From positions 29,101,615 through 29,165,614 of the forward strand of contig NC_091947.1 in the NCBI RefSeq assembly GCF_041260155.1: a stretch of 64,000 nt of DNA. Reading direction: 5' to 3'. The position numbers and the translations under genes are program-made. Source of the DNA: Ptychodera flava. Its lineage: Eukaryota; Hemichordata; Enteropneusta; Ptychoderidae. Below the pieces are notes generated by a model. The model did no database searches. It was not told where the DNA came from and saw only the letters and a program-made list of their open reading frames with translations. This document shows, piece after piece, positions 10,768-62,000 of the stretch (positions are counted from its first letter, which is position 1; every line of letters begins with the position of its first letter).

Positions 10768-12596
10768 CATAGACCTTAAAACGGAAGGACAGGCAACTGC
10801 CAGAAAAGACAAAGAAACTTGCGTGTTTACCCGTACGATCTGGGTTATAATCCTCTGCGCAGTTATGTAAACGCAAAACACGTCACGTGATGACACAGTG
10901 ACGTCTTGGCAGCACTGGAGCTACACAGAAGACGCTATACCTGTGCTGTCGAGTCAAGTCGCGTTCTGTTCCGGGGTCTAGTTCACGTTGTTTTCAAGCA
11001 TTGTATTACCCTTTGATTTTTACAGACAATTTTGCTACCATTTTCGACAGATGAGTCACTATTAGGTATATTTATTGTTGTTGTTTTTTGTAATTCCCGT
11101 CAATTCATGATCGAGTCGGCAAAGTTAATTTTGCAATCTAATCATTGTACACCCCTGATAACTCTTCCGTTTATTTCTGATTCAATGTAATGCTGTAAAC
11201 TTTCTTTTACTTCATTATGTACTTCTTGCACTTCGGCACTGTAGTATTTTTAAAAACTCGTGCGTCTTCAGCCCGATCGGCCATTGTTGTTTACGAAGCG
11301 ACTTCATGTTTCAACTGAAAATTTCATACCCTGTCATATTTCTCTGCTGTAATGATAATGCATGTCAATGATAGTAAACGTTTCAACGTTAGGTATTTCG
11401 TCAACTGACTAGTATTTTGCGGGGCAAATCATGTTTACATTGTAAAACTTGTACCAAATTCACCAAATTTGTACCAAATTCACGTGCTGGCATCTCCAGC
11501 TCGATCGGCCACCATGATTGCTGTTGATGGTCGATCTTTTTGTGCGTTTCAACTAAGTAATTTTTTTACCCTCTTAATAATGCATGACAGTGCTAATGTA
11601 CGTTTCTACGTGTCTTATTTCGTGGATTGAACTAGTATTTTTTGGAGGAAGTCATGCGTACATTTGTAAAACTAGGACTATTCACGCGTCTCCGACTCAG
11701 TCGGCCATTGTTGTTTACAACACGACATTTTGTGCGTTTCCTCTGAGTAATTTTTCGTACCGTCTCATGTTTCTCTGTTGTAATAATAATGCATGACAGT
11801 GCTAACGTACGTTTCTACGTGTCTTATTTCGTGGTTTGAACTAGTATTTTTTTAGGAGGAAGTCATACGTACATTTGTAAAACTAGGACTAAATTCACGC
11901 GTCACCGACTCAATCGGCCATTGTTGTTTACAACACGACATTTTGTGCGTTTCCTCTGAGTAATTTTTCGTACCGTCTCATGTTTCTCTGTTGTAATAAT
12001 AATGCATGACAGTGCTAACGTACGTTTCTACGTGTCTTATTTCGTGGTTTGAACTAGTATTTTTTAGGAGGAAGTCATACGTACATTTGTAAAACTAGGA
12101 CTAAATTCACGCGTCACCGACTCAATCGGCCATTGTTGTTTACAACACGACATTTTGTGCGTTTCCTCTGAGTAATTTTTCTTGCCGTCTCATGTTTCTC
12201 TGTTGTAATAATAATGCATGACAGTGCTAATGTACGTTTCTACGTGTCTTATTTCGTGGTTTGAACTAGTATTTTTGGGAGAAGTCATACGTACATTTGT
12301 AAAACTAGGACTAAATTCACGCGTCTCCGACTCAATCGGCTATTGTTGTTTACAACACGACACTTTGAAAGAGACGCGAAAGCTTGAGCATGCGCTGATC
12401 GCAATGTTGTAGTGATTAACATAATCTCGCGTCTGACAAGCCTCTCAAATCACGGGAATTTCCGTGAGCTTGCGATACGAGAGATAAACAGTTACGTTTG
12501 TTTATGTTAATGAGTGTTCAAGTTTTTCACGGATTATAACCAGGATTACATGAAAGAAATAGCTAGTTGCCTGTCCTTCCGTTTTTAAGGTCTATG
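10768..12596. mobile_element. 1.8-kb non-autonomous TIR transposon with 7-bp target duplication
   Basis: The ends are inverted repeats of about 31 bp that begin CATAGACCTTAAAA and continue CGGAAGGACAGGCAACT, with one extra A in the right copy. The element is flanked by a perfect 7-bp direct repeat GAAAGTT (10761-10767 and 12597-12603). A TIR starting with CA and a 7- to 8-bp duplication fit the P superfamily loosely, but no transposase is encoded, so the superfamily is uncertain. The interior has a GC-richer left part and a 212-bp tandem array. A 32-bp remnant of the same TIRs lies at 55970-56001. Confidence 0.85.
11361..12370. repeat. Tandem array of ~212-bp units inside the TIR element
   Basis: About four good units plus a degenerate first one. 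The landmark GCATGACAG recurs at about 11582, 11791, 12004 and 12216 (spacing 209-213 bp), with a diverged copy (GCATGTCA) at 11361. Units include CACGCGTC, CAATCGGCCATTGTTG and TACGTTTCTACGTG. The middle units differ by only a few bases, pointing to recent amplification or homogenisation. Open frames inside (for example 11584-11796, 12218-12412) are by-products of the repeat. Confidence 0.85.
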
Positions 12597-17108: not shown

Positions 17109-19710
17109 TCAAAATGAAAGATCGATATCGTAATCATTTTTCATGCTTTCCTTGGTGAAGGCACGCAGTTTACCACCACTGCTACGACGCATAATCCTTT
17201 TTTGCCGCTGTCTTTCCCTGCAATACAGATCGCAGTGGTACATGCTGACAAGAATGAGATTGAACAGAGAGAGCAGCCAACTCAAGCCGATCATCAGAAA
17301 GGTATAATCCAGAAAGACGCGTTCTTTCTGCCAAAGGACGCTGGTATCTTCTGATCCCAGTACACCGGTCGAGAAGTGATAGCGAAGTTGGTACAGGACA
17401 CATCCGATCAATCCAATTATCTCAATAGCTGTGAAAAAATAAGCATGATTTGAAAATCATAGTCAAAGAAAACAAACTTCATGTTATTCTCGATGTAACT
17501 TTGTCCCGAGTTTAAAAGCCGCAAACACCGTTATTTTTTTATGAGACACCCATTTTTAATTGGGTCGGGTATTTGTTCTGCCGTGTGAAACCCTTTCATA
17601 ATCTGCCCTTGGATGTTATGTACGTGTTCTTTGCGAGGACAAGCCCTGGCATCGTCTTTGCCAAGACAATTGTCCCCTCGATATGTGCCGCTGTCATTCC
17701 AGAGAGTTCGGTTCACTAACAAGCATAATCACACTATACCTCCCACATTTTTCGCTCCTGGACACCATTTCTTGTCCTGTAAATACATGCAACTACTGAA
17801 TACATATCATGTAGTTCTTTGTGTCCTGCAGTCTTGAAGATGAGTTAGGGGAAATGTCTGTTGTCGGACTTAACACTTAAAAGTTCTGTTTTGTTGAACC
17901 ATCTGTACTCCGATATATGTCTTTATAAACATGCACAACAAAAATATGTTTATCTATAAGAAACACGTGAACAATTCGTCTCCAAAGTCATTACGTCATT
18001 CCCCTAATCACATGGAAATGCTTAGTGTACAGATTACTAAATTGTCAATACAGTCTGTACAATACTATTGTACAGATGATGACAACTGATTTTTAGTCCA
18101 TCGGAGAATTTCTTCAGTAAGGTATTAAACGTTGCTATCGTACACAATGCATGGAGTTTACGAAGCTGATACTTCTTTTCAAAACATGTTAGGGAAAGGA
18201 GGAAGAAATTTTTACTTTTTTCTGGAATATATCGTTCAAAAAACTGTCATTACTTCAATTTAGCAAGTTTTATGAATGATGTACATCCATGCCAAAATAT
18301 ACGAATTCCCTGTCGCAAATACTATTTATGATCTCGCTATGAGATTGATAATGGACGTATCAATTTGATGTAACCCGTTCAAATATTGAACTAGCTGCCA
18401 AACCACTCACGTAATATGCAGGCCAATACGAAATGTGTCCTCATTCCAAGTGTGCTTCTTCGATGCTCTTTCGCCATGGCGCATAGGCTTAATATAGTCT
18501 CCAAAATCACAGAGACAACGATTAAACAGATCAGTGCAGAGGTAATAACCCAGAACCTAAAATGGTAAATGTTTGTCGACAGGTATCGAGCTGTAAATAA
18601 TAAATAAAAGAATAATAAAAAATATGAGGGTTATAACGATCAACAACTTTATATTGAATGTATGGGCTACCGATACCAAGTCAGTATGATATATCGTACT
18701 CGCTACAACGAACTGAAAGGCAGGGCCAAGAATGATCTGTTGATTATTTGAGCAGTAACGTCAACTTTGATATTTAAAACGATCATTTCATCGCGAACGA
18801 AACCTTCACTATCTGAGCACGGCCCGCTAATCGCATCGGAGTTAGAAGGGCGCCAATGATGATTGGGCCATGTAAGTTTTACAACACTGCTAATTTGTCG
18901 GACACCATGCTTTCTTAAACACACGTATATTCAGACTCCATTCACTTATACGACATCTCTTACATAGGTATTGAAAGTATTTCAATTTTGATTTCAACAT
19001 CTCATATTTCAAATCTGGAAGATTTTGTTATGAAGGCAAAAAGTGCGAGTCAGTGTTTTTTATCAAGTAGTGTATATATTGATGATGAATCTGTCCATGT
19101 GTATCTGATATTAATATACAATATTGATTTATGTAAGCTGCGCTTTTATTTCGCAATCCATCTGGCACCTATAAACGATGATGGTGTAAACAGAACTCGC
19201 AGGCTTAACTTGCTAATGGTTTGTGTTTTTGAATACCTGAAATTATAGAATCCACAAATGATATATTTGGAAGGTGGTCTTCAACTTGATCTTTTTAAAG
19301 GAACTTTCTGTTCATATTGACGATATGTTGTAAATTTCATGGCAACGAAACGGACACCATCTTATAGAGCTAATAAAATCAAAATTTTAACCCAAAACAG
19401 AAAGTAAAAGACAAAATTGTGGCTTACTGTTCAGATTAGTAATTCTCACACCCAATCCATAGTTGAGACATTTTGTACCGTAAAAGTGTCCAAAATAGAC
19501 AGTTCCCAGGAACGCTCCTCTGTCGCAGCTTTGAAGGGCGTCCGGATAACGACCAATGAATGACGATTCGGTGGTTGTGTTCCTCCAGACATACACCTGG
19601 AAAAGGTGTTGTGTGCCTAAGCTACCAGCGAACAGTAACAATCCAAATAAAGATAGATTCGCGGAGAAGAAATAAGTAACCCGATGCTTTTTGGATTCAC
19701 CGGCGTTCAT
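17109..19710 (-). CDS. Clarin-like four-pass membrane protein A (3 exons)
   Basis: Minus-strand exons 19428-19710, 18411-18590 and 17109-17428 join in frame to 260 aa (human CLRN1 has 232). Hydrophobic segments lie at about residues 11-33, 107-129, 147-169 and 195-218, giving the clarin four-pass layout. The first loop has an N-glycosylation sequon NTT (Asn44), at the place where CLRN1 has one, then the clarin signature VYFGHFYGTKCLNYGLGVR (YGLF-x-G...GLG-R in CLRN1/2). The C-terminus ends DIDLSF, resembling DLMY of CLRN1 and DILY of CLRN2. Known: clarins act in vertebrate hair-bundle and synapse maintenance. The role here is unknown, and assignment to CLRN1, 2 or 3 is not possible by eye. 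The exon 2 acceptor at 18590 was chosen because it alone keeps the frame. Both splice phases and the 180-bp exon 2 match gene B. Confidence 0.85.
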
Positions 19711-21170
19711 AACTATATCATGTATATAATCACAAAATAGGTGCTATCAAAACTGAGCGTTGGGAAACGCACTGCTTTTGGTATCTTCATAATGCGCCAT
19801 GTGTGCATCTGAGACTGATGAGCTAAAGCTCGGGACCTCTACATGCGAATCTATCTATGCTGAATAAATTAAGTTAAAAATAATATTCGCCCTGAATCGG
19901 ATCATCCCAGATACAAATTTACACATGTAAATATGTATCATAACATGTACTGGTTTAGAAGAGAACTCATAATAAAAGAAAATCCGTTTCAATGGAAATA
20001 AAGTTAATTATTGCATCCGCTAAAAACTTCTCTGTGTCGTTACAACGGTCAGCTGTGGATTAAAATACATAAAGATAAATTTTCATCGTCTCTTTTCTGT
20101 AAATGTTGACGGTTATTTTTAGAGGAACTGTGTTTTTTGGGTCACCTGAAATGACATCGTTTAAACGAAGCCGACAATTTGTATGCGTTTTGCGATGATG
20201 CTGTCTGCAGTGTCGCACTAATCCTGGTGAAAGTAATTGTGGCGCGGGAGCATATATAGCAGCTGCGCTGCATTGATAAATGTGTGGTAGTTACGCGGAT
20301 TACAATTACTTGGGACAAATATCATTTGTGTTGTACGTTTTAATATACTGGGTAAGGATTGCTGCACGACAATATATGAATTGGCTCCTTTCCTTGATCG
20401 CTCATAATTATCTCGATATTCATTTTGGTGAAATATTTAATATCGTTTACGGTAGAGTACACCAACATGAAAAGATTCCGTCGACTTCGGCAACAACACG
20501 TAGGCCTATAGGGAATATCAAAAGATTGCAGCTCATTGCAAATATCTGCCCATACAGACACTATCATTTCCTGGCATTGACAACGCCCAGAGGAAAATTT
20601 CAATTCCAGGAATTGACAACGCTCATGCACTGAATTACTTGTCCCATATTGTCCAAACTTACGAAAGAAATTAGTTTGCACAGCGGGATAGGTGGAAGCC
20701 GCGTGTGGTACAAAACAGACCGCTCATTATAGTCGTCGGACATTTTACGGAGAAGTTGTGTAACTTTCATCCATGCGATGGTTTATATATTCATGCTAAT
20801 CTGTGTTTAGCCGAGACTGAAAGATCCGAAGGATGGTTTAGCCTTTCTCTGGAAAAGGGGAGAATTACAAGAGCTTCATGCGTGAAGTGACTTTCCTGAC
20901 TCCAATTGCTAAATGAATGAATACTGAAAGCTTGTGCTTCGCTACGCATATGAATACTTATCTGCATCAAGGTATTTCTGATATACCCAGATATTTACTG
21001 TCATCTTGTTCTTTTGCAAACCATTTAATTTCTGCAAATTTATGACACTAATTTTTTACACCGACGTATGCGATAGAGAAATAACTCTAATTAAAGATAA
21101 TTGAAAGACTACCGCAGACTTTGCCTGAATGCAGCCTTTGTGACTCTGCTTGAGTGACAATGTCTTGATC
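19711..21170. other. Upstream region of clarin-like gene A
   Basis: No supported gene. Overlapping open frames of 113-117 codons on opposite strands near 20280-20681 have no recognisable domain. A TATA-like CATATATAGC at about 20251-20260 sits beside GGCGCGGG; read on either strand it could be a core promoter, about 540 bp upstream of clarin A. A short duplicated motif AATTGACAACG / CATTGACAACG occurs near 20578 and 20612. Confidence 0.35.
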
Positions 21171-21984
21171 AGTCCAGTCAAAATAGGGTTAGACCCACCA
21201 CAAATTGCAACAGAATTTTTTTCTTCAGAATGCATTTCAGAGAGGTACCCAGAACAACATATTAAAAGTTTACTCGAATCCACCTTGGGGAAATATGACT
21301 TATTTGCATAAATCAAATATGGCGGCCAACCATCCGACAAAATAACATAATTGGCTATATATAACATGTTAAACAAGCTATTTCAGTGATTTCAAAGTCT
21401 GACACAAGGAATTGGGCCCAGAGAATCATTTTGGAGGTATAATATTTCATATGGGCACTTCAATAATTTGCATAATACCAATATGACGGCCAACATTCCT
21501 ACAAAAGACATTTTTGGTCACATACCACGTATTAAACAAGTTATTTCAGTGATTTTAATGTTAAAAGTATATTTTTTAGGCATGGACGATTTTCGAGATG
21601 CAATGATTTGCATAGGTAATTTGGTAATTTGCATAAATCCAATATATTGGCCAACATTCCTACAAATCACATTGTTGGTCATATACCACGCATTAAACAA
21701 GCTATATCAGTGATTTTAAAGTTCTAATATTTTTCTTGGGTATGAAGAAACACTTTTAGTGGCTCAATTTTACAAAGGCCCTTTGACAATTTGCATAAAT
21801 TAAATATGGATGCCATATTAATGCCGCATGGCGTAATAGCTTCTAATATAAATAAGGGTTGTGTATAGTTTTTAGCACTAGGAAACTATCAAGAAGAAAC
21901 TGTTAAGTCCTTGGACATTCATTTTAAAAATTTTGATTTTTCTGTATATGACGTCTGTTAATGATTCTTAGTTTTCTGAATAAT

Positions 21985-23817: not shown

Positions 23818-24148
23818 ACAGTTTTTTCGTTGATATTCCTATTGCTAAACTCTCTACAAGCTATTTGGGCATTAATTTGGCAGCCATATTTCATTTCTGA
23901 ACATTATCTAAGTGTGTTTTAAAAACATTGAACCGCAAAAGGTGTTTCTTCATGCTAAAGAAATATATGGCTGAAATAAACTGTTCAATACATGATATAT
24001 GACAGAAAATGTCTTTTGTAGGTATATTGGCCGGCCTATTGGATTTATGCAAATTAACGAAGTACCTATGTAAATCATTGCACCTCAAAATCATTTGTCC
24101 ATGCCAAAGAAATATACTTTTAACTTTGAAATCACAGAAATAGCTTGT

Positions 24149-24372
24149 TTAACCCTTTGACTGCTGTAATTTTTTACACTAAAATTTTAATGCAATATTT
24201 TACCAATTTCTGTGAATTATTTCTGTACGTGATTTTCATAATTTTGGACCGAATGGATATCATATTTCAGCAGCTACAGTTTTTTTATGAAAATTTTGGC
24301 AAAAAGCAGAAAAATTGACTGTGGTACATTTCTATATAAGTTGACAAAAATAGACTTTGGCCAAAGGGTTAA
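24149..24372. mobile_element. piggyBac-like MITE, copy 1
   Basis: 216-bp element (24153-24368) starting CCCTTTGACTGCTGTAATTT and ending CCAAAGGG, flanked by TTAA on both sides. It sits in a tandem unit whose neighbours read GCTTGTTTAATACG without the insert, so the empty site is visible. TTAA plus CCCTTTG ends is typical of piggyBac-derived MITEs. Non-coding. Confidence 0.8.
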
Positions 24373-24533
24373 TACGTGGTATATGACAGAAAATGTCTTT
24401 TATAGGTATGTTGGCAGCCCCATTGGATTTATGCAAATTAAGGAAGTACCTATGAAAATCATTGCATCTCGAAAATTGTTTGTCCATGCCAAAGAAATAT
24501 ACTTTAAACTTGGAAATCACAGAAATGGCTTGT

Positions 24534-24756
24534 TTAACCCTTAGATTGCTTTACTTTTTTACACCAAAATTTTAATGCAATATTTTACCAATTTCAGTTA
24601 TTTTTTCTGCACATTTTTTTCATTATTTTGGACCAAATGGATATCATTTTTCATCAGCTACATTTGTTAATGAAAACTTTGGCAAAAAGCAGAAAAATTG
24701 AGTGTGGTACATTTTATAAAGTTGACAAAAATAGACTTTGGCTCTCAAAGGGTTAA
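24534..24756. mobile_element. piggyBac-like MITE, copy 2
   Basis: 215-bp element (24538-24752) between TTAA copies, closely related to copy 1 and in the same position of the next tandem unit. It probably arose by duplication of a unit already holding copy 1, because position and orientation are the same. Confidence 0.8.
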
Positions 24757-25292
24757 TACATGGTATATGACAGAAAATGTCTTCTGTAGGTATGTTGGCC
24801 ACCATATTGGATTTATGCAAATTAACAAATTACCTATCCAAATCATTGCACCTCGAAAATCGTTTGTCCATGCCTAAGAAATATACTTTCAATTTTAAAA
24901 TTACTGAAATAGCTTATTTAATACGTGGTATATGACCGAAAATGTCTTTTGTAGGAATGTTGGCCGCAATATTGGAATTATGCAAATTACTGAAGTGACT
25001 ATATGAAACATTATAACTCAAATATGATTCCCTGAGCCAAATAACTAGTGTCAGACTTTGAAATCACTGAAATAGCTTGTTTAATACGTGATATATGGCC
25101 AATTATGTTATTCTGTCGGATGGCTGGCAGCCATATTTGATTTATGCAAATTAGACATATTTCCCCAAGGTGGATTCGAGTAAACTTTTGATATGTTGTT
25201 CTGGGTACCTCATTAAAATGCATTCTGAAGAAAAAAATTCTGTTGCAATTTGTGGTGGGTTAGGTGCCAAAATCTCGTAGATTGACTGGACT

Positions 25293-36913: not shown

Positions 36914-39900
36914 TCAGTACATAAGATCAAGCCCCATGTCTTTTTTGCCAGATTCTTCATGATAGTATATTGATGGCATGTGTATGTCTTCATCGTGGCC
37001 AAGTGAAGCAAGTTTCACAAATATGGCATTGAAAATGAACACGCAAAATGATGCGACAACCAACCAGAAGGAATAACCAAAGTGCACCCACTGGGATCGC
37101 CATCGATCGTCGTAATGTTCATCACTCAGTATTCCGTCTATGAGAGAGATGTAGTATTCTACGATGAACAGAACCATTGCTATTCCAGAAAGTAGAGCTG
37201 AAAGAACAAAAGTGGAGATATCATTGCTACTAAAAGACTGATAGTTTAAAAATCATGATGGATAAAGAACTGATCCAATGTCCAGTCACAGAACACTACC
37301 CGGTAATCAATCCCATAATGCATCATGGCATCATCATAGCTCTGAGCTGCTCAATCAAACATCCAAAATAACTCTTGATGACTGTTGATTTGTATTATTG
37401 ATATACAAACATTTTATACACAGGTAAACATAGACACAAATCTGTGTCCCCATTAATAACATCTATGGGACCAAAATGATTTTGAGAGGTTTAGTTGATT
37501 TTCAAGCAAAGGATGAGTTTAATTATTTTGAGCAGTAAGTGTAACAGGTGGAATGGTTTTAACATTGTTCTGATGTACACATAAGTAAAATTTCACTATT
37601 TAGAATGTGACATTGGAAAATTAGAAAAATTATTTCAGCCAACCAACATAGTGTTGGCAAGTTTCAAAATATGTTTGAATTGAGTCAGTTTTTATGGCAG
37701 CATATGGCAAATTATTTAGAAATCTGGAAAGTGCAGATGGCAAGACAGACGTTCTTTATGACTAAATCTGAAAAAACTTGCCTGGATCATGGATGTTTGT
37801 CCTGGTGTGCAAAAATGAAGTGCTATGACATAAAGGAAAGCATACAACTGCTTCCCTGGTGATCATTCAAGCCTTTAGTTTTGTCAGGAAGTAAAATCTA
37901 TGTTTGTCCATGTCCACTGCCTATTGTCTGTCAGTGGTTAATATTCAGTGTATTTCATGAACTATGCAATGCTCGGTTTTAATCTGGGACTTGATGTTTT
38001 TGAGGGACAATATCTGTGTACATTTGGGACCTGGTGTTTTTTCAGGAACCCATATCCTTCCTAGGATAAAATAACAGGAGCACAGAAATGTTTATATTGC
38101 CAGTTTCCCAATAAAATGATATCATGCACAAGAACTTTTAATTTGGTTGACTTTCTTTCATGACCATAATAAGTTTACAGTTTGTACGCCTTTCTATACC
38201 AGAAGATATCATATTGTGTTTTAAAATTATTCCAGTGTCATTTTGAAGCTTTAGTAAACAAGTCATCGTTGATGACACAGTCCCCACTTGTTAATGGGTA
38301 CTTTGATTACAGGTCCTCAGAGAGGATAGAGTCCTCTTCATTAGGTCTGTGATAAAAATACTTTTGAATAAATTCGCTTGATACATGTTTGAGTTGTAGT
38401 TCAAGACATGAAAAAATCGTAATAAAATTGCCACCAGCGGGCATATTGGATCGTATCACAAAACAAATCACTGTGCATATGTATGACATAGGTCATGTCC
38501 TTGTACCAACTTTGATTAAAGTCGGTTGAGATATGCCTGAGTTATGGCTTTGTACATGAAAAAAATCATAACAAAATGGCCGCACAGCAGCCATATTGGA
38601 TCGTATCACAAAACAAATTAAGGTGCATATGTATGACATTGGTCGATCTCCTTGTAACAACTTTGAATAAATTTGCTTGATACATGTATGAGTTATGGTT
38701 CTGGACACGAAAAAACGTAATAAAATGGCCACACGGCGGCCATATTGGATTGTATCACAAAACAAATCAACGTGCATGTGCATGACATATGTCAATGTCC
38801 TTGTACCAAGTTTGAATAAAATCGGTTGAGATATGCCAGAGTTATGGCTCTGTACATGAAAAAATCGTAATAAAATGGCCGCCTGGCGGCCATATTGGAT
38901 CGTATCACAAAACAAATTGACGTGCATATCTATGACATTGGTCAATGTCCTTGTACCAACTTTGAATAAAATCTGTTGAAACATGCCTGAGTAATGACTC
39001 TGTACATGAAAAAATCGTAATAAAATGGCCGCCTGGTGGCCATATTGGATTGTATCACAAAACAAATCGACGTGCATATGTATGACATAGGTCAATGTCC
39101 TTGTACCAAGTCTGAATAAAATCGGTTGAGATATGTCTGAGTTATGGCTCTGTACATGAAAAAATCGTAACAAAATGGCCGCACGGCGGTCATATTGGAT
39201 CGTATCACCAAAAAAATTGACATGCATATCTATGACATTGGTCAATGTCCTTGTACCAACTTTGAATAAAATCAGTTGAAACATGCCTGAGTTATGGCTC
39301 TGTACATGAAAAAATCGTAATAAAATGGCCGCCTGGCAGCCATATTGGATCGTACCACAAAACAAATCGACGTGCATCTGTATGACATATGAAGTAATCC
39401 TTGTACCAAGTTTGAATGAAATCGCTCCAGGCATCTCTGAGATATCTGCGTGAACGGACGGACGGACGCACGCACGGACGCACGCACTGACGCACGCACG
39501 CACGCACGGACATGACCAAACCTATAAGTCCCCCCGGACGGTGTCCGTGGGGACTAATAAAGTTTAAGTTTTCAATAGCTTAATTTGTAAAAAATTGGGA
39601 ATTTTACTTTCCTCCATAGAGATTATACAAGGATGGCGACTATTTTGAATTTCAAATATCAGTAAATATTGGCTTATTTGTTTCTCTTTAGTACCAACTT
39701 TGCATTCCGTGAACTTTAGGAGACAAAACAATTTTGTGCGATGTAAAGCACTGCTTTTCATATCAATTTTGAGAGAAATTTGTTTGACATGTCACAATGC
39801 AAACACATACCATATTGATCTGAAAAACACAAAGTCAAAAAATCTGAGCCACGCTTGGCAATGGACGAAAAACAAACACTATTGTGTAAATACAGGATTA

Positions 39901-42900
39901 TACAGTCAACACATACCTGCTGATCCAGTCCAGAGGTAGAGACCAAAGATGCCTGTCACCATGTTGACTGGGACAACACATGCGTTGTAAGTAGCAAATA
40001 CAGTTGTAACCGCTCCCATTATGATGGCTAAAATACAGAACACGATCACTGATATCCACAGGCCAATGTTGTATGTATCTGACAAGTAGTCAAAGGCTGA
40101 AATTTAAAAATAAACATCTGTATAAAAATATACACATGACTAAAAAAATATTCAAATACACAAGTCCAGTACCATTGGTATGATTAATGTTCATGTATCT
40201 GTTGTTTTTTGTTGTCATTCCCTGCAAAAGTGAGACAAGAAATGCAAAAATTATTTTTAGTTTAGAGTTTAGGAAGTTCTTCATGAAATAAATGTGAATC
40301 CAGGGATTAATAACAACATGCTTTGCTGCAACACAGTTCTTTTATTTGAAGGATATTACTACAGTCCTGGATTCTCCATACAGATTAGGAAACTTTAAAC
40401 CTTTCTTTTTCAAAATAAAGAATAAAAGTTAGGGGTCAAGGAGCAAATTTTGGCATTAGACAAATAAATTACCTAACATTTACATACACTAGTAGAAACT
40501 CAGTGATGCCACTATCTCTGTGTTAGCTCTACTGGGAGAAATTCAGTTTTTGATTTTGCTCAAAAATGAGATCGTGAAAATTTCTTTACTCCATGAGATT
40601 TGAAATGAGCCCACACACACACCTTAGACAAATGAGCCCACACAAGCCTTAGACCTGAAAAGTATTATCAAAATTTGAGAGTCCAAATATCTATACCTGC
40701 AGTGCATACTACAATGTTAACCTTTTTTTCATCTCACTGGAAATTCAAGAAAAAGAACCACAGTGATAGCTTGATTCAGTTTGACGTTAAATTAATTGTA
40801 CTCGTCAGTTTTGAAAAATATATCTACCGGCAAATCTGATTTTTTCATAATTTATATTCTTTTATATGTGGCATTACCATGAGAATGTATTAATAGTCAT
40901 GGAACACTCATAATAGTATGCAAATTATTTACCAAAATAAGCCTCAATTTGTATATTTCATATGCTGACAGTGCAATCCAAAACATCACCTGGTTTACCG
41001 AGCACTACAGCTGGCACCAAACTCACGCTAAGTTACCAGCACTGGGGCCTATACAGCACAATATACTGCTGGTACATCAAAATATGAAGCGACGATCATT
41101 TGACCTCTGCTCACATCTATAATGGGCATGTCAGTATTAACTATTAGCTAATGGAACACAGCTCAGTTTGTTAATGATAATACACCCAAAAATAATGGCC
41201 ACACTATATTGTGTAATGCAATTGAAACATTCATAGAATTGTCAGAATTTTTTCCCATCTGAAGGACAATATAGGCTACTGTTCTTAAAACACACCTCTA
41301 TAAAGTCTATGTTTTCCTTTGAATTTTCCATTCACTGAACAATTTGCTTCCTGTTCAAATTATCATCAGGAATATTCCTTTTTAATTAGTAGAATTATGC
41401 TTGTTTTATCATGTCTTCACCGCAGTCTGAGTCTCTAATACTAAACGGAACACTCACTGAGAGATGGCATCACACCTTGGCAGATAGTCTATGTAGCCGA
41501 CACGAACATGGGGTTACACGAAAAATATGTAAATGAGAAGACAATAATAGATGACACGGGCCTCTGCCCTCTTGGCAACTTACTTGACAACTGGAAAGTT
41601 GCGGGGACCTCTGCCAACTTGCCAACTTACTTACTTGCCAACTTTCATGGGTGGAAGTTGGCGGGGGCCTCTCCCAACTTGCTAACTTACTTGCCAACTT
41701 TCATGGGTGGAAGTTGCGCGGGGCCTGTGCCAACTTGCCAACTTACTTACTTGCCAACTTTCATACCGGGAAGTTGGCGGGGGCGTCTGCCAACTTGCCA
41801 ACTTACTTACTTGCCAACTTTCATGGGTGGAAGTTGGCGGAGGCCTGTGCCAACTTGCCAACTTACTTGCCAACTTTCATACTGGGAAGTTGGCGGGGGC
41901 CTCTGCCAACTTGCCAACTTACTTACTTGCCAACTTAAATGGATGGAAGTTGGCGGGGGCCTCTGCCAACTTGCCAACTTACTTACTTGCCAACTTTCAT
42001 GGGTGGAAGTTGGCAGGGGCATCTTCCAACTTGCTAACTTACTTGCCAACTTTCATGGGTGGAAGTTGGCAGGGGCCTGCGCCAACTTGCCAACTTACTT
42101 ACTTGCCAACTTTCATGGGTGGAAGTTGGCAGAGGCCTCTGCCAACTTGCCAACTTACTTGCCAACTTTCATACAGGGAAGTTGGCGGGGGCCTCTGCCA
42201 ACTTGCCAACTTACTTACTTGCCAACTTAAATGGATGGAAGTTGGCGGGGGCCTCTGCCAACTTGCCAACTTACTTACTTGCCAACTTTCATGGGTGGAA
42301 GTTGGCAGAGGCCTGTGCCAACTTGCCAACTTACTTGCCAACTTTCATACCGGGAAGTTGGCGGGGGCGTCTGCCAACTTGCCAACTTACTTACTTGCCA
42401 ACTTTCATGGGTGGAAGTTGGCGGAGGCCTGTGCCAACTTGCCAACTTACTTGCCAACTTTCATGGGTGGAAGTTGGCGGGGGCCTCTGCCAACTTGCCA
42501 ACTTACTTACTTGCCAACTTTCATGGGTGGAAGTTGGCGGGGGCCTCTGCCAACTTGCCAACTTACTTGACAACTTTCATGGGTGGAAGTTGGCGGGGGT
42601 TTCTGCCAACTTACTTTCTTGCGAACTTTCACGGGTGGAAGTTGGCGGAAGCCTGTGCCAACTTGCCAACTTAATTGCCAACTTTCATACTGGGAAGTTG
42701 GCGGGGGCCTCTGCCAACTTGCCAACTTACTTACTTGCCAACTTTCATTGGTGGAAGTTGGGGGGGGGGGGGGGGCCTCTGCCAACTTGCCAACTTACTT
42801 GCCAACTTTCAATGGGGAAGTTGGCGGGGGCCTCTGCCAACTTGCCAACTTACTTACTTGCCAACTTTCATGGGTGGAAGTTGGCGGAGGCCTCTGCCAA

Positions 42901-45900
42901 CTTGCCAACTTACTTGCAAACTTTCATACAGGGAAGTTGGCGGGGGCCTCTGCCAACTTGCCAACTTACTTACTTGCCAACTTTCATGGGTGGAAGTTGG
43001 CGGAGGCCTCTGCCAACTTGCCAACTTACTTGCAAACTTTCATACAGGGAAGTTGGCGGGGGCCTCTGCCAACTTGCCAACTTACTTACTTGCCAACTTA
43101 AATGGATGGAAGTTGGCGGGGGCCTCTGCCAATTTGCCAACTTACTTACTTGCCAACTTTCATGGGTGGAAGTTGGCGGAGGCCTGTGCCAACTTGCCAA
43201 CTTACTTGCCAACTTTCATACAGGGAAGTTGGCGGGGGCCTCTGCCAACTTGCCAACTTACTTACTTGCCAACTTAAATGGATGGAAGTTGGCGGGGGCC
43301 TCTGCCAACTTGCCAACTTACTTGCCAACTTTCATACAGGGAAGTTGGCGGGGGCCTCTGCCAACTTGCCAACTTACTTACTTGCCAACTTAAATGGATG
43401 GAAGTTGGCGGGGGCCTCTGCCAACTTGCCAACTTACTTACTTGCCAACTTTCATGGGTGGAAGTTGGCAGAGGCCTGTGCCAACTTGCCAACTTACTTG
43501 CCAACTTCCATACCGGGAAGTTGGCGGGGGCGTCTGCCAACTTGCCAACTTACTTACTTGCCAACTTTCATGGGTGGAAGTTGGCGGGGGCCTCTGCCAA
43601 CTTGCCAACTTACTTGACAACTTTCATGGGTGGAAGTTGGCGGGGGCCTCTGCCAACTTGCCAACTTACTTACTTGCCAACTTTCATGGGTGGAAGTTGG
43701 CAGAGGCCTGTGCCAACTTGCCAACTTACTTGCCAACTTTCATACTGGGAAGTTGGCGGGGGCGTCTGCCAACTTGCCAACTTACTTACTTGCCAACTTT
43801 CATGGGTGGAAGTTGGCGGGGGCCTCTGCCAACTTGCCAACTTACTTACTTGCCAACTTAAATGGATGGAAGTTGGCGGGGGCCTCTGCCAACTTGTCAA
43901 CTTACTTACTTGCCAACTTTCATGGGTGGAAGTTGGCAGAGGCCTGTGCCAACTTGCCAACTTACTTGCCAACTTCCATACCGGGAAGTTGGCGGGGGCG
44001 TCTGCCAACTTGCCAACTTACTTACTTGCCAACTTTCATGGGTGGAAGTTGGCGGGGGCCTCTGCCAACTTGCCAACTTACTTGACAACTTTCATGGGTG
44101 GAAGTTGGCGGGGGCCTCTGCCAACTTGCCAACTTACTTACTTGCCAACTTTCATGGGTGGAAGTTGGCAGAGGCCTGTGCCAACTTGCCAACTTACTTG
44201 CCAACTTTCATACGGGAAGTTGGCAGGGGCCTCTGCCAACTTGCCAACTTACTTACTTGCCAACTTTCATGGGTGGAAGTTGGCGGGGGCCTCTGCCAAC
44301 TTGCCAACTTACTTGACAACTTTCATGGGTGGAAGTTGGCGGGGGCCTCTGCCAACTTGCCAACTTACTTTCTTGCCAACTTTCATGGGTGGAAGTTGGT
44401 GGAGGCCTGTGCCAGCTTGCCAACTTACTTGCCAACTTTCATTGGTGGAAGTTGGCGGAAGCCTGTGCCAACTTGCCAACTTACTTACTTGCCAACTTTA
44501 ATGGGTGGAAGTTGGCAGAGGCCTCCGCCAACTTCCCCATTGAAAGTTGGCAAGTTGGCAAGTTGGCAGAGGCCCCCGCCAACTGCGGCCCATGAAAGTT
44601 GGCAAGTAAGTAAGTTGGCAAGTTGGCAGAGGCCCCCGCCAACTTCCCCATTGAAAGTTGGCAAGTAAGTTGGCAAGTTGGCAGAGGGTCCCACGAACTT
44701 GCCAACTTCCACAACTTGGCAAAGGGCGCCACCAACTTCCACGCATGAAAGTTGGCAAGTAAGTAAGTTGGCAAGTTGGCAGAGGCCCCCGCCAACTTCC
44801 CCATTGAAAGTTGGCAAGTAAGTTGGCAAGTTGGCAGAGGGTCCCACGAACTTGCCAACTTCCGCAAGTTTGCTATTGAATTATGTAACAGACGATAGCC
44901 ACCGACTTGGTATTTCAGAGATTGAAGTTGTACCCAAGAGGGGGAAGTTGGTCGACAAAACCTGAAACTTGTACATTCTGCATATCATTAGCATCTTATT
45001 GTCGGCTACATTGACTGTCTGCCGGAAGTTGGCGGGGGCCTGTGCCAACTTGCCAACTTACTTGCCAACTTTCATGGGTTGAAGTTGGCGGGGGCCTCTG
45101 CCAACTTGCCAACTTACTTACTTGCCAACTTTCATGGGTGGAAGTTGGCGGGGGCCTCTGCCAACTTGCCAACTTACTTACTTTCCAACTTTCATGGGTG
45201 GAAGTTGGAGGAGGCCTCTGCCAACTTGCCAACTTACTTGCCAACTGTCATACCGGGAAGTTGGCGGGGGCCTCTGCCAACTTGCCAACTTACTTACTTG
45301 CCAACTTTCATGGGTGGAAGTTGGCGGGGGCCTGTGCCAACTTGCCAACTTACTTGCCAACTTTCATGGGTGGAAATTGGCGGGGGCCTCTGCCAACTTG
45401 CCAACTTACTTTCTTGCCAACTTTCATGGGTGGAAGTTGGTGGAGGTCTGTGCCAGCTTGCCAACTTACTTGCCAACTTTCATGGGTTGAAGTTGGCGGA
45501 AGCCTGTGCCAACTTGCCAACTTACTTACTTGCCAACTTTAATTGGTGGAAGTTGGCAGAGGCCTCTGCCAACTTCCCCATTGAAAGTTGGCAGAGTAAG
45601 TTAGCAAGTTGGCAGAGGCCCCCGCCAACTTCCCCATGAAAGTTGGCAAGTAAGTTGGCAAGTTGGCAGAGGCCCCCGCCAACTCCCCATTGAAAGTTGG
45701 CAAGTAAGTTGGCAAGTTGGCAGAGGCCCCCGCCAACTTCCACGCATGAAAGTTGGCAAGTAAGTAAGTTGGCAAGTTGGCAGAGGCCCCCGCCAACTTC
45801 CCATTGAAAGTTGGCAAGTAAGTTGGCAAGTTGGCAGAGGGTCCCACGAACTTGCCAACTTACACAAGTTTGCTATTGAATTATGTAACAGATGATAGCC

Positions 45901-48900
45901 ACCGACTTGGTATTTGAGAGTTTGAAGTTGTACCCAAGAGGGGGAAGTTGGTCGACGAAACCTGAAACTTGTACATTCTGCATATCATTAGCATCTCATT
46001 GTCGGCTACATGGACTGTCTGCCCACACCTTTGGTACAGTATTATTTCAAGTTGTCAGAGGTGAAATACAAGTGTGTGCATGTGTATGATATCTCTCATT
46101 CTCTATAAATCATTAACAGCAAAGCGCTACTTATCCTCAAATATTCTAACTACCGTCATTCAAGCTAGTCTACAATTTATTACTGCTTCTGTGTATTACA
46201 TATCTCCATAAAGTAATATATGGTAGTCCGATGCCACAGATCCTAGATTTGATATCGCGTATACCACTCTGACAGTCACTACACTGATATGTCACGTTAT
46301 CTGCTTTTGTAGTCTACATGTCATACCATATTTCATGCAATACACTGTGTTCTTGTCTACACGATATCTTACGCGTCATTTAACTAAACTGAGTTTCAGA
46401 TATAAAAAGGGCTGACCAATGAGAAAGATGGCAGCGAAAATGGTCTTTGTATGTGTCAGGTACGGTAAAATGGAAGTACTGTATGGGTTAATGGATCTCA
46501 TATTGCCAACATGAAGTTTTACAAAAAATTAAGTTCCTTTTTGCAATATTTGCAAAATGAATAGGCTATATATAGCAGCTTTATTTTTTCTTATCCCTTT
46601 TGTTAAAAGAAGTATAATTGTGCTATTACCATACTTTGAGAAAAGGTATATATATAAAATAGATTTTGTCATTTTAGTTGCACTACAGAAGAGTATGTTT
46701 GTGCTTGTCAGCTCTGTATCCATAGTAACAAGATCAGTCATACACTCTGCCAGTCTCAGATTTTGATGTCATTCCAATTCAGGCCAAACAAAATATTTTT
46801 TCTGGTACTCTGACCCACCTTATTTTACATCTGACCCTGATATCTATTTTGAGTATTTTCAAAATACAGCCTTTGATTTTATCATTCTGTTCTCTTTTCT
46901 CTGGGTCCACAGCGAGTAAAACTAATTAGCCAAGCTCCTAACTTCTTTTTCCAAGCTGAAACACTGGAAACACAAACAATATGTACTGACGCCTTCATAA
47001 ATTATCTGCATGAATGAAATATCAATATCAAAATATCTTGCCAATTAACTCTCATTTAAAATACCTTAACCCTTGAACTGCAAAAGTCAATTTTTGTTGC
47101 CTTTGTAGAATATAACACCAACAATTTTTTTTTCAGATTTGGACATTTATTTGAAAACTGTAGCCAATGAAAAGTTATGTTCATTTGGCCTAAAATTATC
47201 AAACAATATTAAAGAAAAATTCATAAAAATTTGTAAAATGTTGCCCTGAAATTTTGGTGGGGAAAAAATTACAGCACTCAAAGGGTTAAAGGCAAGTATG
47301 CAGTTTCATCACCTCTATGGACAGATATAAATAATTTACAAGCCATTCAGCATTAAAAGAGTCAGTTTACTGTACATTGCTATACTTGACATTGGTGAAA
47401 CTCCCCGAGTTACATGAAATGTGTGCTGTATAACTTTACTATTCAAATGGACAGTTCTTAACAGAAGCATATACACTGTCAAGTATATCTCTACTCAACT
47501 TTGGATAATTCTAGGCCAACAGATGATCAAAATTTGAAAAGAGATGTACATGTACCATCACGTCCCGATTAAGGAACAGTCATAATGTATATTATTATTA
47601 ATTGTAAAATGTCACGGGTGTACAACAGTTTGTTCTAATGTGGATCAGCTGATGTGAAGTTGATGCTGACCTATAGACTCAACGGGAAGTTCAAAATTTA
47701 CGGGACACATGTTCTTAGGTTTGATATAACTTCTTATTAATATATCATTGCATTGTATTTGCTGCAAATGAAAATGTTGTTCGTAATGCACATAATGCAT
47801 TTCAACTGGTGTATACCTATAATACAGAACCTGGTATACTTTCCGGGTCAAATTCTTCTATAGTCAGTGATATTACCGTATCTCCATTCTTTTAAGATTA
47901 GCAGTTTGGTTGGTTTTGATAAAGGGCAAACATAAGTGGCACATTCAAAATGTAAATTACAGATCCATATGTTTAGAGAGTGGTTGTACACTAGGTGCCA
48001 AGCCCAGAAATCAAACATAAACCCTGCAATGACCAATTCCCCCCCCCCCCCTCCTCCAACATTTCATAGGTAAACTGTCAAATAAATCTTTCTTGGCAAT
48101 TCGTCAAATTTAACAAAACCAGTTTTCTGCATTGCAGAAAACTGGTCTTGCAGCAAGACTGTGGATCTTGAGCCAGTTAACACGGGGAAACTGAAACATC
48201 CCATAGTTAAATAACATTAACATGAACAGTTCATCACACAGATTGTTATCTTATTAATTCTGATAATTTGGGTCAACCATCTCAGGTACTCAGCATGTGC
48301 TCCAAATGAAAGGCATTTGCATGTCCTAGCTGTCCCCATTTTGATGCACCAGGCCACTTTATCTTGTCAATTGATGTAATAATTTTACTCTTTTCACATT
48401 TTGTTGTATGAAGGATCAAAGAAATTTTGAACTCTGCAAGTTAAGAGGAGAAATGCTATCAAAAATAAAAACTACTTCTATTACTTCTAACTTGTTACCG
48501 GACAGGTAACTACAATCACTGACCTGCCTGATTAAAGGGACAAAGTCGGCCATTTTTCATGAATTTTGTTTGATGCGAGATACTACTTAATATATTGTTT
48601 GACATTTTGAAAGATACTGAATGAATGGGCGACCATGCATTGACCCCGGTTTTAGACACGATAAACAAAACCATCGCGAAAATGAATGGTAATGACCATT
48701 AATTTATTTTCGCGATGGTTTAATTGATTGTGTCTAAAACCAGGATCAAATATATGCAGGGTCACCCATTCAGTATCTTTCAACATGTCAAACAATATAA
48801 GTAGTATCTCGTATCAAACAAAATTCATGAAAAATGGCCAACTTTGCCCCTTTAAAATCATGGTAAAATGAACACCGGTAGAAAACACAAAACTGTCATG

Positions 48901-56049: not shown

Positions 56050-59000
56050 ATGATGGCGGACCCCGTAACTATTGTTGTGAAATGGAGTGGAAAGGAGTAC
56101 ACAGTGTCAGATTTGAGTCAAGAAAATACTGTAGGAGAACTAAAGGAAGCTATAAAGTCTCAAACAGGTGTGCTACCAGAGAGACAAAAACTGTTAGGAT
56201 TGAAGTACAAGGGTAAGTGACACAATTATCCAAAATAATGGTATCCGGTTTGTACACCATCCCACAGGGAAGGCATCCCTTGCTCAACTGTGTACACATG
56301 TCCATACTCCAACATGCTCAAGATCAGCTCAGTGATGCGACTGTTGATCCCCTTGGATGCAGGCACAGGCGATCGACTCACTATATTCGAAGCTCAGTGT
56401 CAGAGGCATCGCGTACAGTCAGACGAACGCACTGCAGCTGCAGTGAACGTGTGCACGTTACCATAAAATATTGACCATGTTGACTGACAGTGTGAGCCAG
56501 CTTGCATTACAGTGTGAGACATGCAGGACATGTTTTGTGGAGGGACCGTGCTGTTACGTATCTTCACCGTCCCTCCACGGTGGTATCTTCCATTAAAACA
56601 TGCGCCATTTTACGAATTTTCTAACGCATCATGACGAGCAACATGTGTAGGTCAGGTGTGAGAGTTTTGGATCAAGCCTCGAAATTGTTCATAGTCTCCT
56701 TTCCACAGGTAAAATTTTGTCAAGACAACATATTGATGTGAGGTGGAAGTGATAACGATTACGTGTTATCAAGAAGCAGCTTTCTTTAAATTGCATTTTT
56801 TTCAAAGTTTTCATTTTGCATCAAGACACAAGACATGACTCCTGGTGGGGAGATATGCATATTTCCCCAGTATAACACAGCAGAATAATTCTGAGGAATT
56901 CAAACTTTATTGTCCTCATCATGATGAAAACATCATTACAGAAACAAAGGGTACAACGGGATTATTCTACTGATCTTGTGCTTTGAAAAGCATGTGTGCG
57001 AATTTGAAATAAGTTTTGTGGAGGGACCATGTGCTATTTATTATACAGTTCCTTTTGTCTCAAAATCTCTGGCAAGCTGAAGTCATCAAGCAGTTCGGTA
57101 AAGTAAACATGTACTTTGAGTTTGAAAGCTATTGTTAATGTCAAACCACTTTATAATTTGAAGTGGAGTACATTATTTCATGTCTATTCCACATGTCAGG
57201 GAAATCCCCAGATGATGATGTTGCATTGTCGGCATTGAAATTAAAACCAAACACTAAAATCATGATGATGGGGACAAGAGAAGAAACGATTCAAGCAATT
57301 ATGGAACCACCTAAAGACATTGGTGAAGTTGTTGATGATTTTGACATCGAGGAAGAGGAAGTCCTTATAGAAAACAGGTGAATTCATGTCATAATTATGT
57401 ACTACCGTTAAAGTCATTTTATAAGACGCGTCTTTTATTATGATGTTGCAAATTTTGAACTCGAATTATTTCTCCAGAGAAGGGGTGCGACTTATAATAT
57501 GTACCTTTGTGTTTTTTAAAGAGGTATACTCCTTCGTCAACCAGTAGGATAAAGTATCAACTTTTGATGAACAGAGCCAACCTAAATGGTGGCCGGTAGT
57601 GTGACAGATCTGATGAAAAAGGGGTGCGACTTATAATGCATACATTCTCCATTTTCAATTTTTTAAGGATTTCATCCCACGCAAGTCAATCAAAGGAGGG
57701 TGCGACTTATAATACAGATGCGTCTTATAAAATTACTTTAACGGTACATAGACTGAAAGATCCATCGCTTGAGAGCGCTCTAGGGGAGCTTTATAGAGAG
57801 CGATGGATCTGAAAGGGACACAGTCGGCCATTTTTTCATGAATTTTGTTTGATGCAAGATACTACTTATATTGTTTGACATCACAAATTAAATTAAACCA
57901 TCGCAAAAATGAATTAATGGTCATGACCGTTAATTCATTTTCGCGATGGTTTCATTTATTGTGTCTAAAACTGGGGTCGAATATATGTACAGTCACCCAT
58001 TCATTCAGTACCTTTCAACATGTCAAACAATATAAGTAGTATCTTATATCAAATAAAAGTCATGAAAAGTGGCCACTTTGTCCCTTTAAGTCTATGTAGT
58101 TCAGCGTCTTGCTGTAAATGACCATTTCTGATATGCAAACCTGTTGAGGGTGGTCACTCCATGACCAAGACGATGTGACTGCCGTGAGAAGGGCAGGTCT
58201 TCCTCTTGACCAGTGGGTGTGGCATAAATTCTCTGACAGTGTGCAGTCTTTAACTTCTTTTCACCCCAATGGTTCAGCCAAAACTCATTATCACCAATGA
58301 TGGGTGTGGACATGTGTATGGAGAATCAAAGATACACAGCTTAAAATGCTACACATGATTTTCACCGACTTGATCTGCAAGACATACACAAATATGATGA
58401 GTTTGACTGACATGACATGATGACAACAGTGTGTGGCATACCAGTATCTGTCAAAATGATTTTGACAATAGTTGTAACTTTGAGTTTTATTTTTACAGGT
58501 AAGGAGTTTATTTTCATATCTCTCTGTTCCATTTCTCACTTATTTCAGGGAAGAAAATCTACAGAAAATAGCCAGAAGAGTCAAAGACTATGAAATCAAA
58601 ATTTTGAACCCACCAAGACCTGGCAAGAAACTCTTAGTATTAGATGTTGATTATACATTATTTGGTAAGTACATGAATTATTTTGGCAGTATTTCATGTT
58701 AAGATAGCTGTTTTTGACCTTGAATACATTATCACCTAGCCAGCTTTTCAACATTGTGATGTTGTTGACATGTCATTCATATCTGTGTGTAAATGGTTGT
58801 AAGCCAACTATAAGAAGAAAGTGTTTGTGATGTGTTTCTAACAGGATTTGCTGTGTAAATTCTTCAGGCAGGTTTTGTGAATCAGTCAGCAGGTAAGGTG
58901 TACACCGCTCACACAAAATCTACATCAGTTTGTCTCTAGACTATGATCGCTTCATGTTTTGACAGACTGATAATTCTGTTTATTAACATAGATTACACAT

Positions 59001-62000
59001 GAAATATATTTTTACTCTGCCTTGCTACGTTTCACAGAAAATGTGTTTGTCATTTGAGCATTTTTCATATTTACTGGAATTATTTTGTGCATCCCATTCA
59101 GTTTCCATTGACATCTGTTTACATTACAGATCATAGATCCTGTGCTGAGACTGGGGTTGAATTAATGAGACCTTATTTACACGAGTTCCTGACAGCAGCA
59201 TATGAAGATTACGACATTGTAATCTGGTGTGAGTATTCCATGACTTGCAATATGATGATATGGGCAGGGATGAAGATGTGCCTCAGTGGTTTTGTGCACT
59301 TTCTTACTGTGCCTGAGGTCAGGGGTTCAAGCCCTGCTTATCCCAAATTTCCAGTAAAGAGGTCCACCATCACCATTGATAACACTGGGTTTGGGCTGAA
59401 CCATTGAGGTGGAAGGGTTTCAAGACACCTATATAGGTCAGCATGCTTGAATATGTTTGATGAGAGTGAGGTAACTGGTCCAATGCATGCTGCAGAAAAC
59501 AGACTGATAGTTGAGGAATATTTGTGTGACATGATTCAATGTAATTATTAATTTTTTGTGAACATGATTGTAAGTAGAACTTCGGTGTCCATAGCCAACA
59601 AAACATACATTTTATCATGAGAGCATTCCAAACTGATTAAATAAATTGACCTTCATTTAGAAGCAAAACCAAATTTACCCTTTCTGTGTGCTACCGCATC
59701 ATTTGGTAATTCTTGTTTCCTTCAGCTGCTACAAGTATGAAGTGGATTGAAGCTAAGATGAAAGAGTTAGGTGTGACTGGTAATCCCAACTATAAGTTGA
59801 CTTTCATTCTGGACAGTGCCGCCATGATCACAGTCTTTACTCAGAAATATGGAGTCGTAGAGGTAAGTCGTCCTTTATCAGTTAAATTGTTGAAATATTA
59901 TTTTAACAGCGGAAAACAACTTGCTTGAGAATATAACTGTGGACTCTACTGGTCAATACCTTGCGTGGGCATGATTTGAATTTGTTTAGAAAATTGAGTT
60001 TCCATTGTCAAGGTTGAAAGGAAATGAATAATTCAGTCTGTGCTCAATACCCTTACCATAGAGAGTGGAAGCCATTTTGAATTTCGAAGATTGTGGAAAA
60101 TTTTAGGTAGTTTTCCTCTATGATACAAAACTTTGATAGTCAATGATTTTAATTCTTTACTTTGAAAGCGAAACCTTTGTAAGTCTTCATCCACAGAGTA
60201 TGAAAAAATTACAAAGAGTGTATTACCACAACTAGACAAGGTCACAAATGCCTAATATTCTCTCTTCATGTTACTTTCTGATGTTTGTGGTTTGAACAAT
60301 CACTTTTTGTCGTCTGGATTGATTCCATAAATACATTTTGTCACACTATGCCATGTGGATACAGTACATATACAAACACTTCAAAGTGATGCAGATAGCA
60401 TAAACTTAAAGAAATGATGGTGTGACATCAATGATATTTGGTGATACACTATCACTGCCTCCAGTAATTTATAAATAGATCATTTGCAACTCCACAAATG
60501 CTGCAAACAGAAAGCAAACCAAGAAGCAGTCATCATCATCATCAAACAGCTACAGGCACATCTAAGAATGGCTGCCAGGCAACCAGTTTGAGTCACATCA
60601 CTTTTAAAAAACTGATGTACATGTATGTGCTGTTCGATGAAAGAAATTCACTAGCATATGCCTGTGAACAAATTGAATCAAAACTGTAGCCAATTAGTCA
60701 TTCAGACTTTACTTCAAACCAGAAGTCATGAGTTTCCAAGTCTGCATCTTCCCTAACTTGTTTGCAAATATTCGTGATCATTTCCAGACCAAACCCCTTG
60801 GAGTTGTTTGGGGAAAGTTTGAAGAATACAGCAGCAAGACGACAATCATGTTTGATGACATCAGGAGAAATTTTTTGATGAATCCACAAAATGGACTGAG
60901 AGTAAGTAAAGTCATCCAAATTAGCAATTTCATTAAACTCCCACAAGAATATCAGTCCACCAATGTAGCAATTCCGTAATATAACTAGCATGTATACCTT
61001 TTTTCTCAAGTCTCAACGTTTATGGAGTAATGATAATATTTATGATTCCTTTCATAGTATGATAATTTCTTATTGACCAGTTCACCATTTTAACTCCTGT
61101 GACGTTAACCTCTGACAATGATTCTACTCCGGAATAAAAAGGACGCGATGCGTTCTACAGACTCAGTACGCCCAAGAGATCACGTGATTGCGGTAAAAAC
61201 AAACCCACATGTGCTCTCACGTGTGTGGAAATACATGTTCGTCTATGCGCGTTTACACATGTGGGTTTGTTTGTACCGTGGTCAATTCGAATTCCGGGTT
61301 TGACCTATTGTGTCACTATTTCTGTTCACTGTATCAGCTACAATTTCTTGGTCTGCTTATGATTATACTCATTCATGTTAATGTCTGGAGTAGACAGATA
61401 TTCCATCGTTAACAACAATGTATCATGCCAACAATGTTGACTTGCAAATACTAAATGTTTCAACATGTAGAATAGGAGACTGTGGTGAAACATTGAGCAA
61501 CATTGCTGAAAAATTGCCGAGCAAGATTGCAAATTTTTTCTCAGCACAGTATATTCCAAATTTAGAAAGCATGGAATCAAATGTCATTTTGTCTCTTCAT
61601 TGTTTGTTAAGATGATAATTTATTGTATTGTTTCAGTGTCATCTTTAGTGGCAGGCACATGAGCAGTAATTCACTTCCAGATTCGTTACTTACAAAGATA
61701 GTTGGGGTGAAAAATAGTACAGACGTTTGAGTTTTGATAACTGCACTGATTCTTGTTTGGCTTGAGCATGGATTTGAAATATTTTTGCACAGATCACTGT
61801 CTGTTTGAATCACAATGCAGACTGTTGTGAATGATGGCTGTAACATTCTGTAGTAATATTGGAGTTATAAGGCCCATGAAAATTGTAGCAATGAGCGTTA
61901 ATTTAGGCAAAAACACCTCTGGGGTGCTATTTTCATCACTAACTCAAAATTTCTATAGGAAAAATTTATTAGTACTCAAACTGATATTGTTTTAACACCT

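Follow-up and report, generated by a model that had tools for sequence, protein, structure and literature searches.

A candidate foldback-type DNA transposon with a minisatellite body and a doubled right end in the hemichordate Ptychodera flava

Foldback transposons can carry tandem repeats in long inverted ends, and the described families closest in build to the element reported here are Tetris, Tm1, and Galileo, with which we compared it by their published descriptions. The element occupies positions 41479-46023 (4,545 bp) of a 64,000-nucleotide stretch of P. flava DNA (contig NC_091947.1), hereafter called the window. Tetris, a foldback element of Drosophila virilis, resembles it, in the passages describing that family, in being nonautonomous, in bearing tandem repeats within long inverted ends, and in making target duplications of 8-10 bp; its repeat number differs between alleles, and no autonomous copy was found (PMC4079207). 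The same passages give Tetris a 220-bp unit that has 37 bp in common with the terminal domain, a flanking domain of up to 866 bp, and a middle domain (PMC4079207), whereas the P. flava element has a 56/60-bp unit, short ends, no separate middle domain that we could see, and a right end that is doubled. Tm1, a Mutator/Foldback element of root-knot nematodes, is described in the structural passages of its report as having composite terminal inverted repeats (TIRs), tandem units in variable number, and duplications of 8-10 bp, mostly 9-bp, and its authors suggest crossover between copies; it differs by a 13-15 bp unit, by non-inverted 7-bp terminal motifs, and by a putative transposase in some members (PMC3169594). 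Galileo, a member of the P superfamily, has, according to passages of two reports, long TIRs, internal tandem repeats of variable number in some subfamilies, and chimeric copies, and the THAP domain of its transposase, a DNA-binding domain, binds in vitro to sites in repeats inside the TIR (PMC3573991, PMC3688188). As described there, however, its repeats measure about 210 bp and reach up to three copies (F subfamily of D. mojavensis), its transposase sequence is known (PMC3573991, PMC3688188), and its duplications are 7 bp long (PMC3573991) against 8 bp here.

Minisatellites or satellites also lie within miniature inverted-repeat transposable elements (MITEs). BrickBuilt, from Porphyromonas gingivalis, is one such case according to the passages on it, although it is bacterial and has another unit (PMC4596501), and the Xenopus MITEs Xstir and miDNA4 are described in a similar way, again with other units (PMC9659126, PMC12628747); the passages on these three elements make no mention of opposed arrays (PMC4596501, PMC9659126, PMC12628747). 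The amphioxus 'mirage' minisatellites, which the passages on them present as duplications of intron-exon boundaries, are hence unlike our element and were set aside.

Our reading of the locus, to which we give a probability of about 0.7, is that of a nonautonomous cut-and-paste DNA transposon of foldback type, which carries the array in its body and which has undergone self-insertion, array fusion, and later amplification. A previous sequence-only reading had described a block that moved as a unit, with 24-bp TIRs and a perfect 8-bp flanking duplication. The duplication is indeed exact, CACACCTT standing on both sides; the TIRs are real, yet imperfect, the left one being equal to the reverse complement of the right one at 22 of 24 positions. 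To judge chance, the inner 24-bp ends of 59,725 pairs of identical 8-mers, lying 88-10,000 bp apart, were compared as inverted repeats (8-mers with 2 to 60 occurrences in the window, commoner ones being excluded). A single pair did better (23/24, at 48564/48823); its 8-mer, TTCATGAA, is itself palindromic and so prolongs an inverted repeat, and the CACACCTT pair has the best inner match among pairs with a non-palindromic 8-mer. Over 20 dinucleotide-preserving shuffles, the top inner match reached 15 to 17 of 24. Since an exact duplication flanks TIRs that match better than those of the shuffles, the movement of the element as a unit is upheld. That the locus is no transposon at all, but an assembly artefact or a minisatellite flanked by repeats through chance, is extremely improbable: it is a single, repeat-rich locus, and searches of viral and prokaryote collections yielded no relative, but the TIRs and the exact duplication sit at the edges of a compositional change (G+C 0.31-0.34 in profile windows wholly outside the element versus 0.49-0.54 in those wholly inside), and an internal end repeats the identical terminus.

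Forward or inverted array makes up 90.5% of the element, a figure for which the array boundaries were placed by eye, and the claim that the 4.5-kb block is mostly a 56/60-bp tandem repeat therefore holds. The unit reads GGAAGTTGGCGGGGGCCTCTGCCAACTTGCCAACTTACTT(ACTT)GCCAACTTTCATGGGT and measures 60 or 56 bp depending on one ACTT; 46 of the 49 forward units scored in the first array (A) and all 9 of those scored in the second (B) have one of these two lengths. All 18 matches of the unit pattern in the window lie within the element, as do all 83 occurrences of the half-site AAGTTGGC and 169 of the 170 occurrences of the half-site GCCAACTT; together, these half-sites account for 44% of the element. 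Toward the left end, 41503-41600 scores 23 against the unit, which none of 500 shuffles attains, while 41503-41560 alone gives no signal (439/500 shuffles reach the score). The unit does not resemble the TIR (168/500 shuffles equally good). This unlikeness, together with the nonsignificant similarity of the right subterminal stretch, would suit the capture of a pre-existing genomic minisatellite as cargo by a TIR element, as is proposed for miDNA4 in the passages on that MITE (PMC12628747). We consider such a capture quite improbable here, as the window contains the unit pattern nowhere but in the element and the opposed arms suit a structural role. One forward unit (42753-42815) has an expanded G run and terminates in TCAATGGGG, a motif found elsewhere in the window as its reverse complement only, within the inverted arrays.

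The sequence-only reading had overlooked a compound structure, namely a second right end with its TIR (44867-45023) followed by a second forward and a second inverted array. Module A runs from the left TIR through 94 bp of left subterminal sequence, forward array A, a turn, and inverted array A to a 157-bp right end with TIR; module B begins directly after this inner TIR, with no spacer, and consists of forward array B, a turn, inverted array B, and the outer 157-bp right end with TIR (Table 1). The arms of module A are very unequal (forward about 2.9 kb, inverted 0.35 kb). The inner right end halts exactly at the last TIR base, an array unit following at once, and it equals the outer right end at 151 of 157 bases (6 differences). 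The similarity extends leftward: of the aligned bases, 308 of 314 are identical between inverted arrays A and B (51 gap columns), 394 of 407 between the last seven forward units, which are collinear (1 gap column), and 171 of 176 between the last three. Placed on A, the last three units of B reach a score of 166 at the collinear position, none of the 47 alternative unit starts tried giving more than 152, and each of these edge units ranks 1 of 49 with its collinear partner. Edge-unit variants, inverted array, and unique end are thus common to the modules at 96-98% of ungapped positions and, because both modules have it at this level, the forward-plus-inverted array with its edge variants is older than the module split.

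Other parts of array A look more recent. Its exact repeats are 316 bp (with a spacing of 468 bp), 211 bp, and 169 bp long, and one identical unit type (F) is present 8 times; from the long exact repeats we infer a later local amplification in the middle of this array. Such amplification is what would be expected if a small MITE with a few units had inserted and all array growth had been local afterwards, by slippage and unequal exchange. We hold this to be unlikely, given that both modules possess, at the similarity just given, the right end, the inverted array, and three or more edge units whose variants are private, and that the forward plus inverted array predates their split, an objection that is weaker if the split was a local duplication. 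The array would therefore belong to the mobile body and not be solely a later local expansion, as far as the two modules tell. Hence, of the two possibilities raised before, an expanded MITE or a mobile minisatellite, neither stands unmixed: the array in the body seems older than the module split, and the middle of the long array seems to have been amplified later.

The doubled right end may be explained as follows. Most likely, transposase placed a second copy within the first one's array, at GGAAGTTG; the two like-oriented arrays would then have recombined, with loss of the inner left end and joining of the arrays; and unequal exchange or slippage would afterwards have amplified unit blocks in array A. 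The transposase is presumed to come in trans, and, by analogy with Galileo, the half-sites may be extra binding sites for it. Self-insertion is favoured because an insertion made by transposase breaks exactly at the TIR end, as an ordinary duplication rarely does. Its main rival, which covers this one step and overlaps with the other readings, is a local duplication of the ordinary kind, spanning about 1 kb from array B to the right end. This would agree with the fact that the modules can be aligned over about 1 kb and with a divergence that is alike in the unique end (6/157) and in the edge units (5/176). It is possible, if on balance unlikely, as the junction coincides with the final base of the TIR, a point that random breakage would seldom hit, and no long homology is seen at the junction (judged by eye, no statistics).

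The element had also been called a giant foldback, and both the forward arrays followed by inverted ones and the predicted folding agree with this. For the stretch 44200-44870, the energy of self-folding is -329 kcal/mol versus -116.7 +/- 4.4 in 20 shuffles (z about -48). For single units the folding is modest (z -2.4 and -2.7); a unit dimer (z -5.6) and the A turn (z -7.4) fold more strongly than these, and the two element ends, taken by themselves, do not surpass shuffles (z 0.22 and -0.37). The orientation switch falls on the dyad axis of the unit's own palindrome, and a perfect 30-bp palindrome lies at the B turn. A hairpin or template switch at this axis may perhaps have made the inverted arm; compared from the axis, the arms of A are equal at 92.5% of ungapped positions (64 gap columns).

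Several points weigh against the history that we propose. The exact junction is the one observation that speaks for self-insertion, and the inner left end, being lost, is not visible, nor is its target copy. The six units to the left of B's edge units rank 2, 9, 8, 1 (a rank held jointly with seven others), 27, and 20 of 49, so that a common unit order appears clear for a few units and not for the whole array. A derivation of the unit from the TIR or from the right subterminal domain, comparable to the terminal-domain origin proposed in Tetris, is unsupported by the shuffle tests: neither the right subterminal stretch against the unit (54/500 shuffles reach the score) nor the left against the right subterminal stretch (70/500) shows significant similarity. 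As to the hairpin step, a perfect 26-bp palindrome of the same kind, at 42123-42148, has no turn, so a palindrome alone does not produce one; the A turn keeps, at the place equivalent to the B palindrome, just an 8-bp perfect core, like three other units; and the best alignment of the arms of B is shifted by one unit from the axis (95.5% of ungapped positions, 26 gap columns). The overall odds of the transposon reading are independent of this step. Finally, the element is known from one locus only, and an assembly error in the repeat array is conceivable.

Table 1. Parts of the element and of its flanks, in window positions
Feature	Positions	Strand	Basis
Left target site duplication copy, 8 bp, CACACCTT	41471..41478	.	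exact match to right copy
Left TIR, 24 bp, starts GG	41479..41502	+	22/24 versus right TIR
Left subterminal stretch; inner portion a degenerate array unit	41503..41596	+	shuffle test against unit
Forward array A, 49 units scored, mostly 56/60 bp, block duplications	41597..44520	+	boundaries by eye
Two units in array A with right-edge variants (ACTTTCTTGC; GGCGGAAGCC)	42585..42692	+	each motif 3 times on window + strand
Exact direct repeat of 316 bp; copy starts 43430 and 43898, spacing 468 bp	43430..44213	+	exact match
Inverted array A, reverse-oriented 56/60-bp unit; turn axis between 44521 and 44522	44521..44866	-	boundaries by eye
Internal second right end, 157 bp; internal TIR 45000-45023	44867..45023	+	6/157 differ from outer right end
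GGAAGTTG adjoining internal TIR; candidate remaining copy of a target duplication, should the inner copy have inserted at this point	45024..45031	+	sequence; inference
Forward array B, 9 units	45024..45562	+	unit scoring
Forward-to-inverted turn in B, perfect 30-bp palindrome	45548..45577	.	sequence
Inverted array B	45563..45866	-	boundaries by eye
Outer right end; right TIR 46000-46023	45867..46023	+	157 bp, aligned to inner right end
Right target site duplication copy, 8 bp, CACACCTT	46024..46031	.	exact match to left copy

Concerning family placement, opposed tandem repeats lie beside both ends (forward at the left, inverted before the right end), as in foldback elements, and the exact 8-bp duplication has a size within the 8-10 bp of Tetris and Tm1. 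Elements of the hAT superfamily make duplications of the form nTnnnnAn and have TIRs starting with CAG, and those of the P superfamily have TIRs starting with CA and 8-bp duplications. We set both aside, as CACACCTT has A at position 2 and T at position 7 and the TIR starts with GG; for the P superfamily, the duplication length fits and the TIR start does not. The TIR start, 5'-GGCAGA, and the 8-bp duplication agree with the 5'-GG and the 8-9 bp duplications that are given for Merlin, whose TIRs measure 24-462 bp and which has tandem repeats in some Symbiodinium copies, according to passages of one report (PMC8101967). Merlin members are recognised there by their transposase domain (PMC8101967), whereas no transposase, the DDE_Tnp_IS1595 type of Merlin included, was found among 20 open reading frames (ORFs) of the window, five of them lying at least partly within the element, to which the Pfam scan was confined. 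The duplication length is also within the 8-10 bp of Mutator (Mutator-like elements, MULEs), again with no transposase among these ORFs. Judged by such structural marks, the element may be said to fit Merlin, and Mutator is possible. The long ORFs in the array are due to the repeat itself; their Pfam E-values go down to 4e-06, with a DUF3147 match above the curated cut-off, and a match outside the element, TAT_ubiq at 38493-39521, is likewise above its own cut-off. In neither case does a stretch pass alone, and both were taken as repeat noise.

Searches for relatives gave little. A 20-mer of the unit had no match in viral contigs and two single matches in prokaryote contigs (L002 and L003), each record having only two half-site 8-mers, which we attribute to chance; among the first eight alignment rows, the single place aligned, in L003, is 23 nt long. 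A degenerate 20-base TIR pattern matched once (L001), the similarity stopping at about 20 bp, and this match was likewise taken as chance. Blastn of 44500-45100 against phages gave no match, and Rfam gave 0 matches at the gathering threshold. In a full-text search with five short TIR and unit strings, the two unit strings had no occurrence among the matches listed, which included no transposon by title; one paper, on orchid simple sequence repeat markers by its title, contained a TIR piece. Topic searches of the literature, which covered few subscription papers and left repeat databases outside, listed no title naming the element, and a search for the TU elements of sea urchins brought up the Tetris paper alone. 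The statement that no described family has this unit thus stands for the unit strings among the matches listed, but the foldback kind itself is described (Tetris, Tm1, and Galileo). The element apparently represents a new, unnamed family within the foldback transposons, which are themselves a known kind; its compound structure is unusual.

Other repeats occur in the window. An inverted pair (21193-21696 and 24753-25260, about 500 bp, 89% alike) has a right arm that overlaps the end of an intervening 384-bp tandem array (23987-24921), and is another inverted repeat-bearing block. Two related inverted-repeat elements lie at 48532-48859 and 57806-58090, the former having ends like AAAGGGACAAAGTCGGCCATTTTTCATGAA and, by eye, TTAA on both edges. 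Tandem arrays of 150/300 bp (38363-39424) and 212 bp (11575-12367) showed no TIR-like bounding pair, short imperfect inverted repeats (17-25 nt, 76-84%) being all that was listed for them in the stretches searched. Exon-like ORFs within 6185-7229, 59003-59407, 19387-19743, and 36914-37252 match an M-phase inducer phosphatase of CDC25 type (two pieces above cut-off), an NLI/NIF-type phosphatase (just below cut-off) and, weakly and below cut-off, clarin-like and claudin-like sequences; the two phosphatase similarities indicate an animal genome.

Growth of the element by self-insertion, with the array as landing pad and recombination track, is a speculative idea that we would sooner doubt than believe. 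If it were true, each round followed by array recombination would add a module made of forward array, inverted array, and right end, while the outer ends would stay mobile. The edge-type units at 42585-42692, whose motifs ACTTTCTTGC and GGCGGAAGCC occur nowhere else on the window's + strand but at the right edges of forward arrays A and B, are perhaps the trace of an earlier fusion and, under such growth, would be that of an earlier round. With this element, the transposons built mostly of tandem repeat, which are a proposed source of dispersed minisatellites and satellites, gain an apparently unnamed family, and its doubled right end and turn points would form a readable record of array turnover and inversion.

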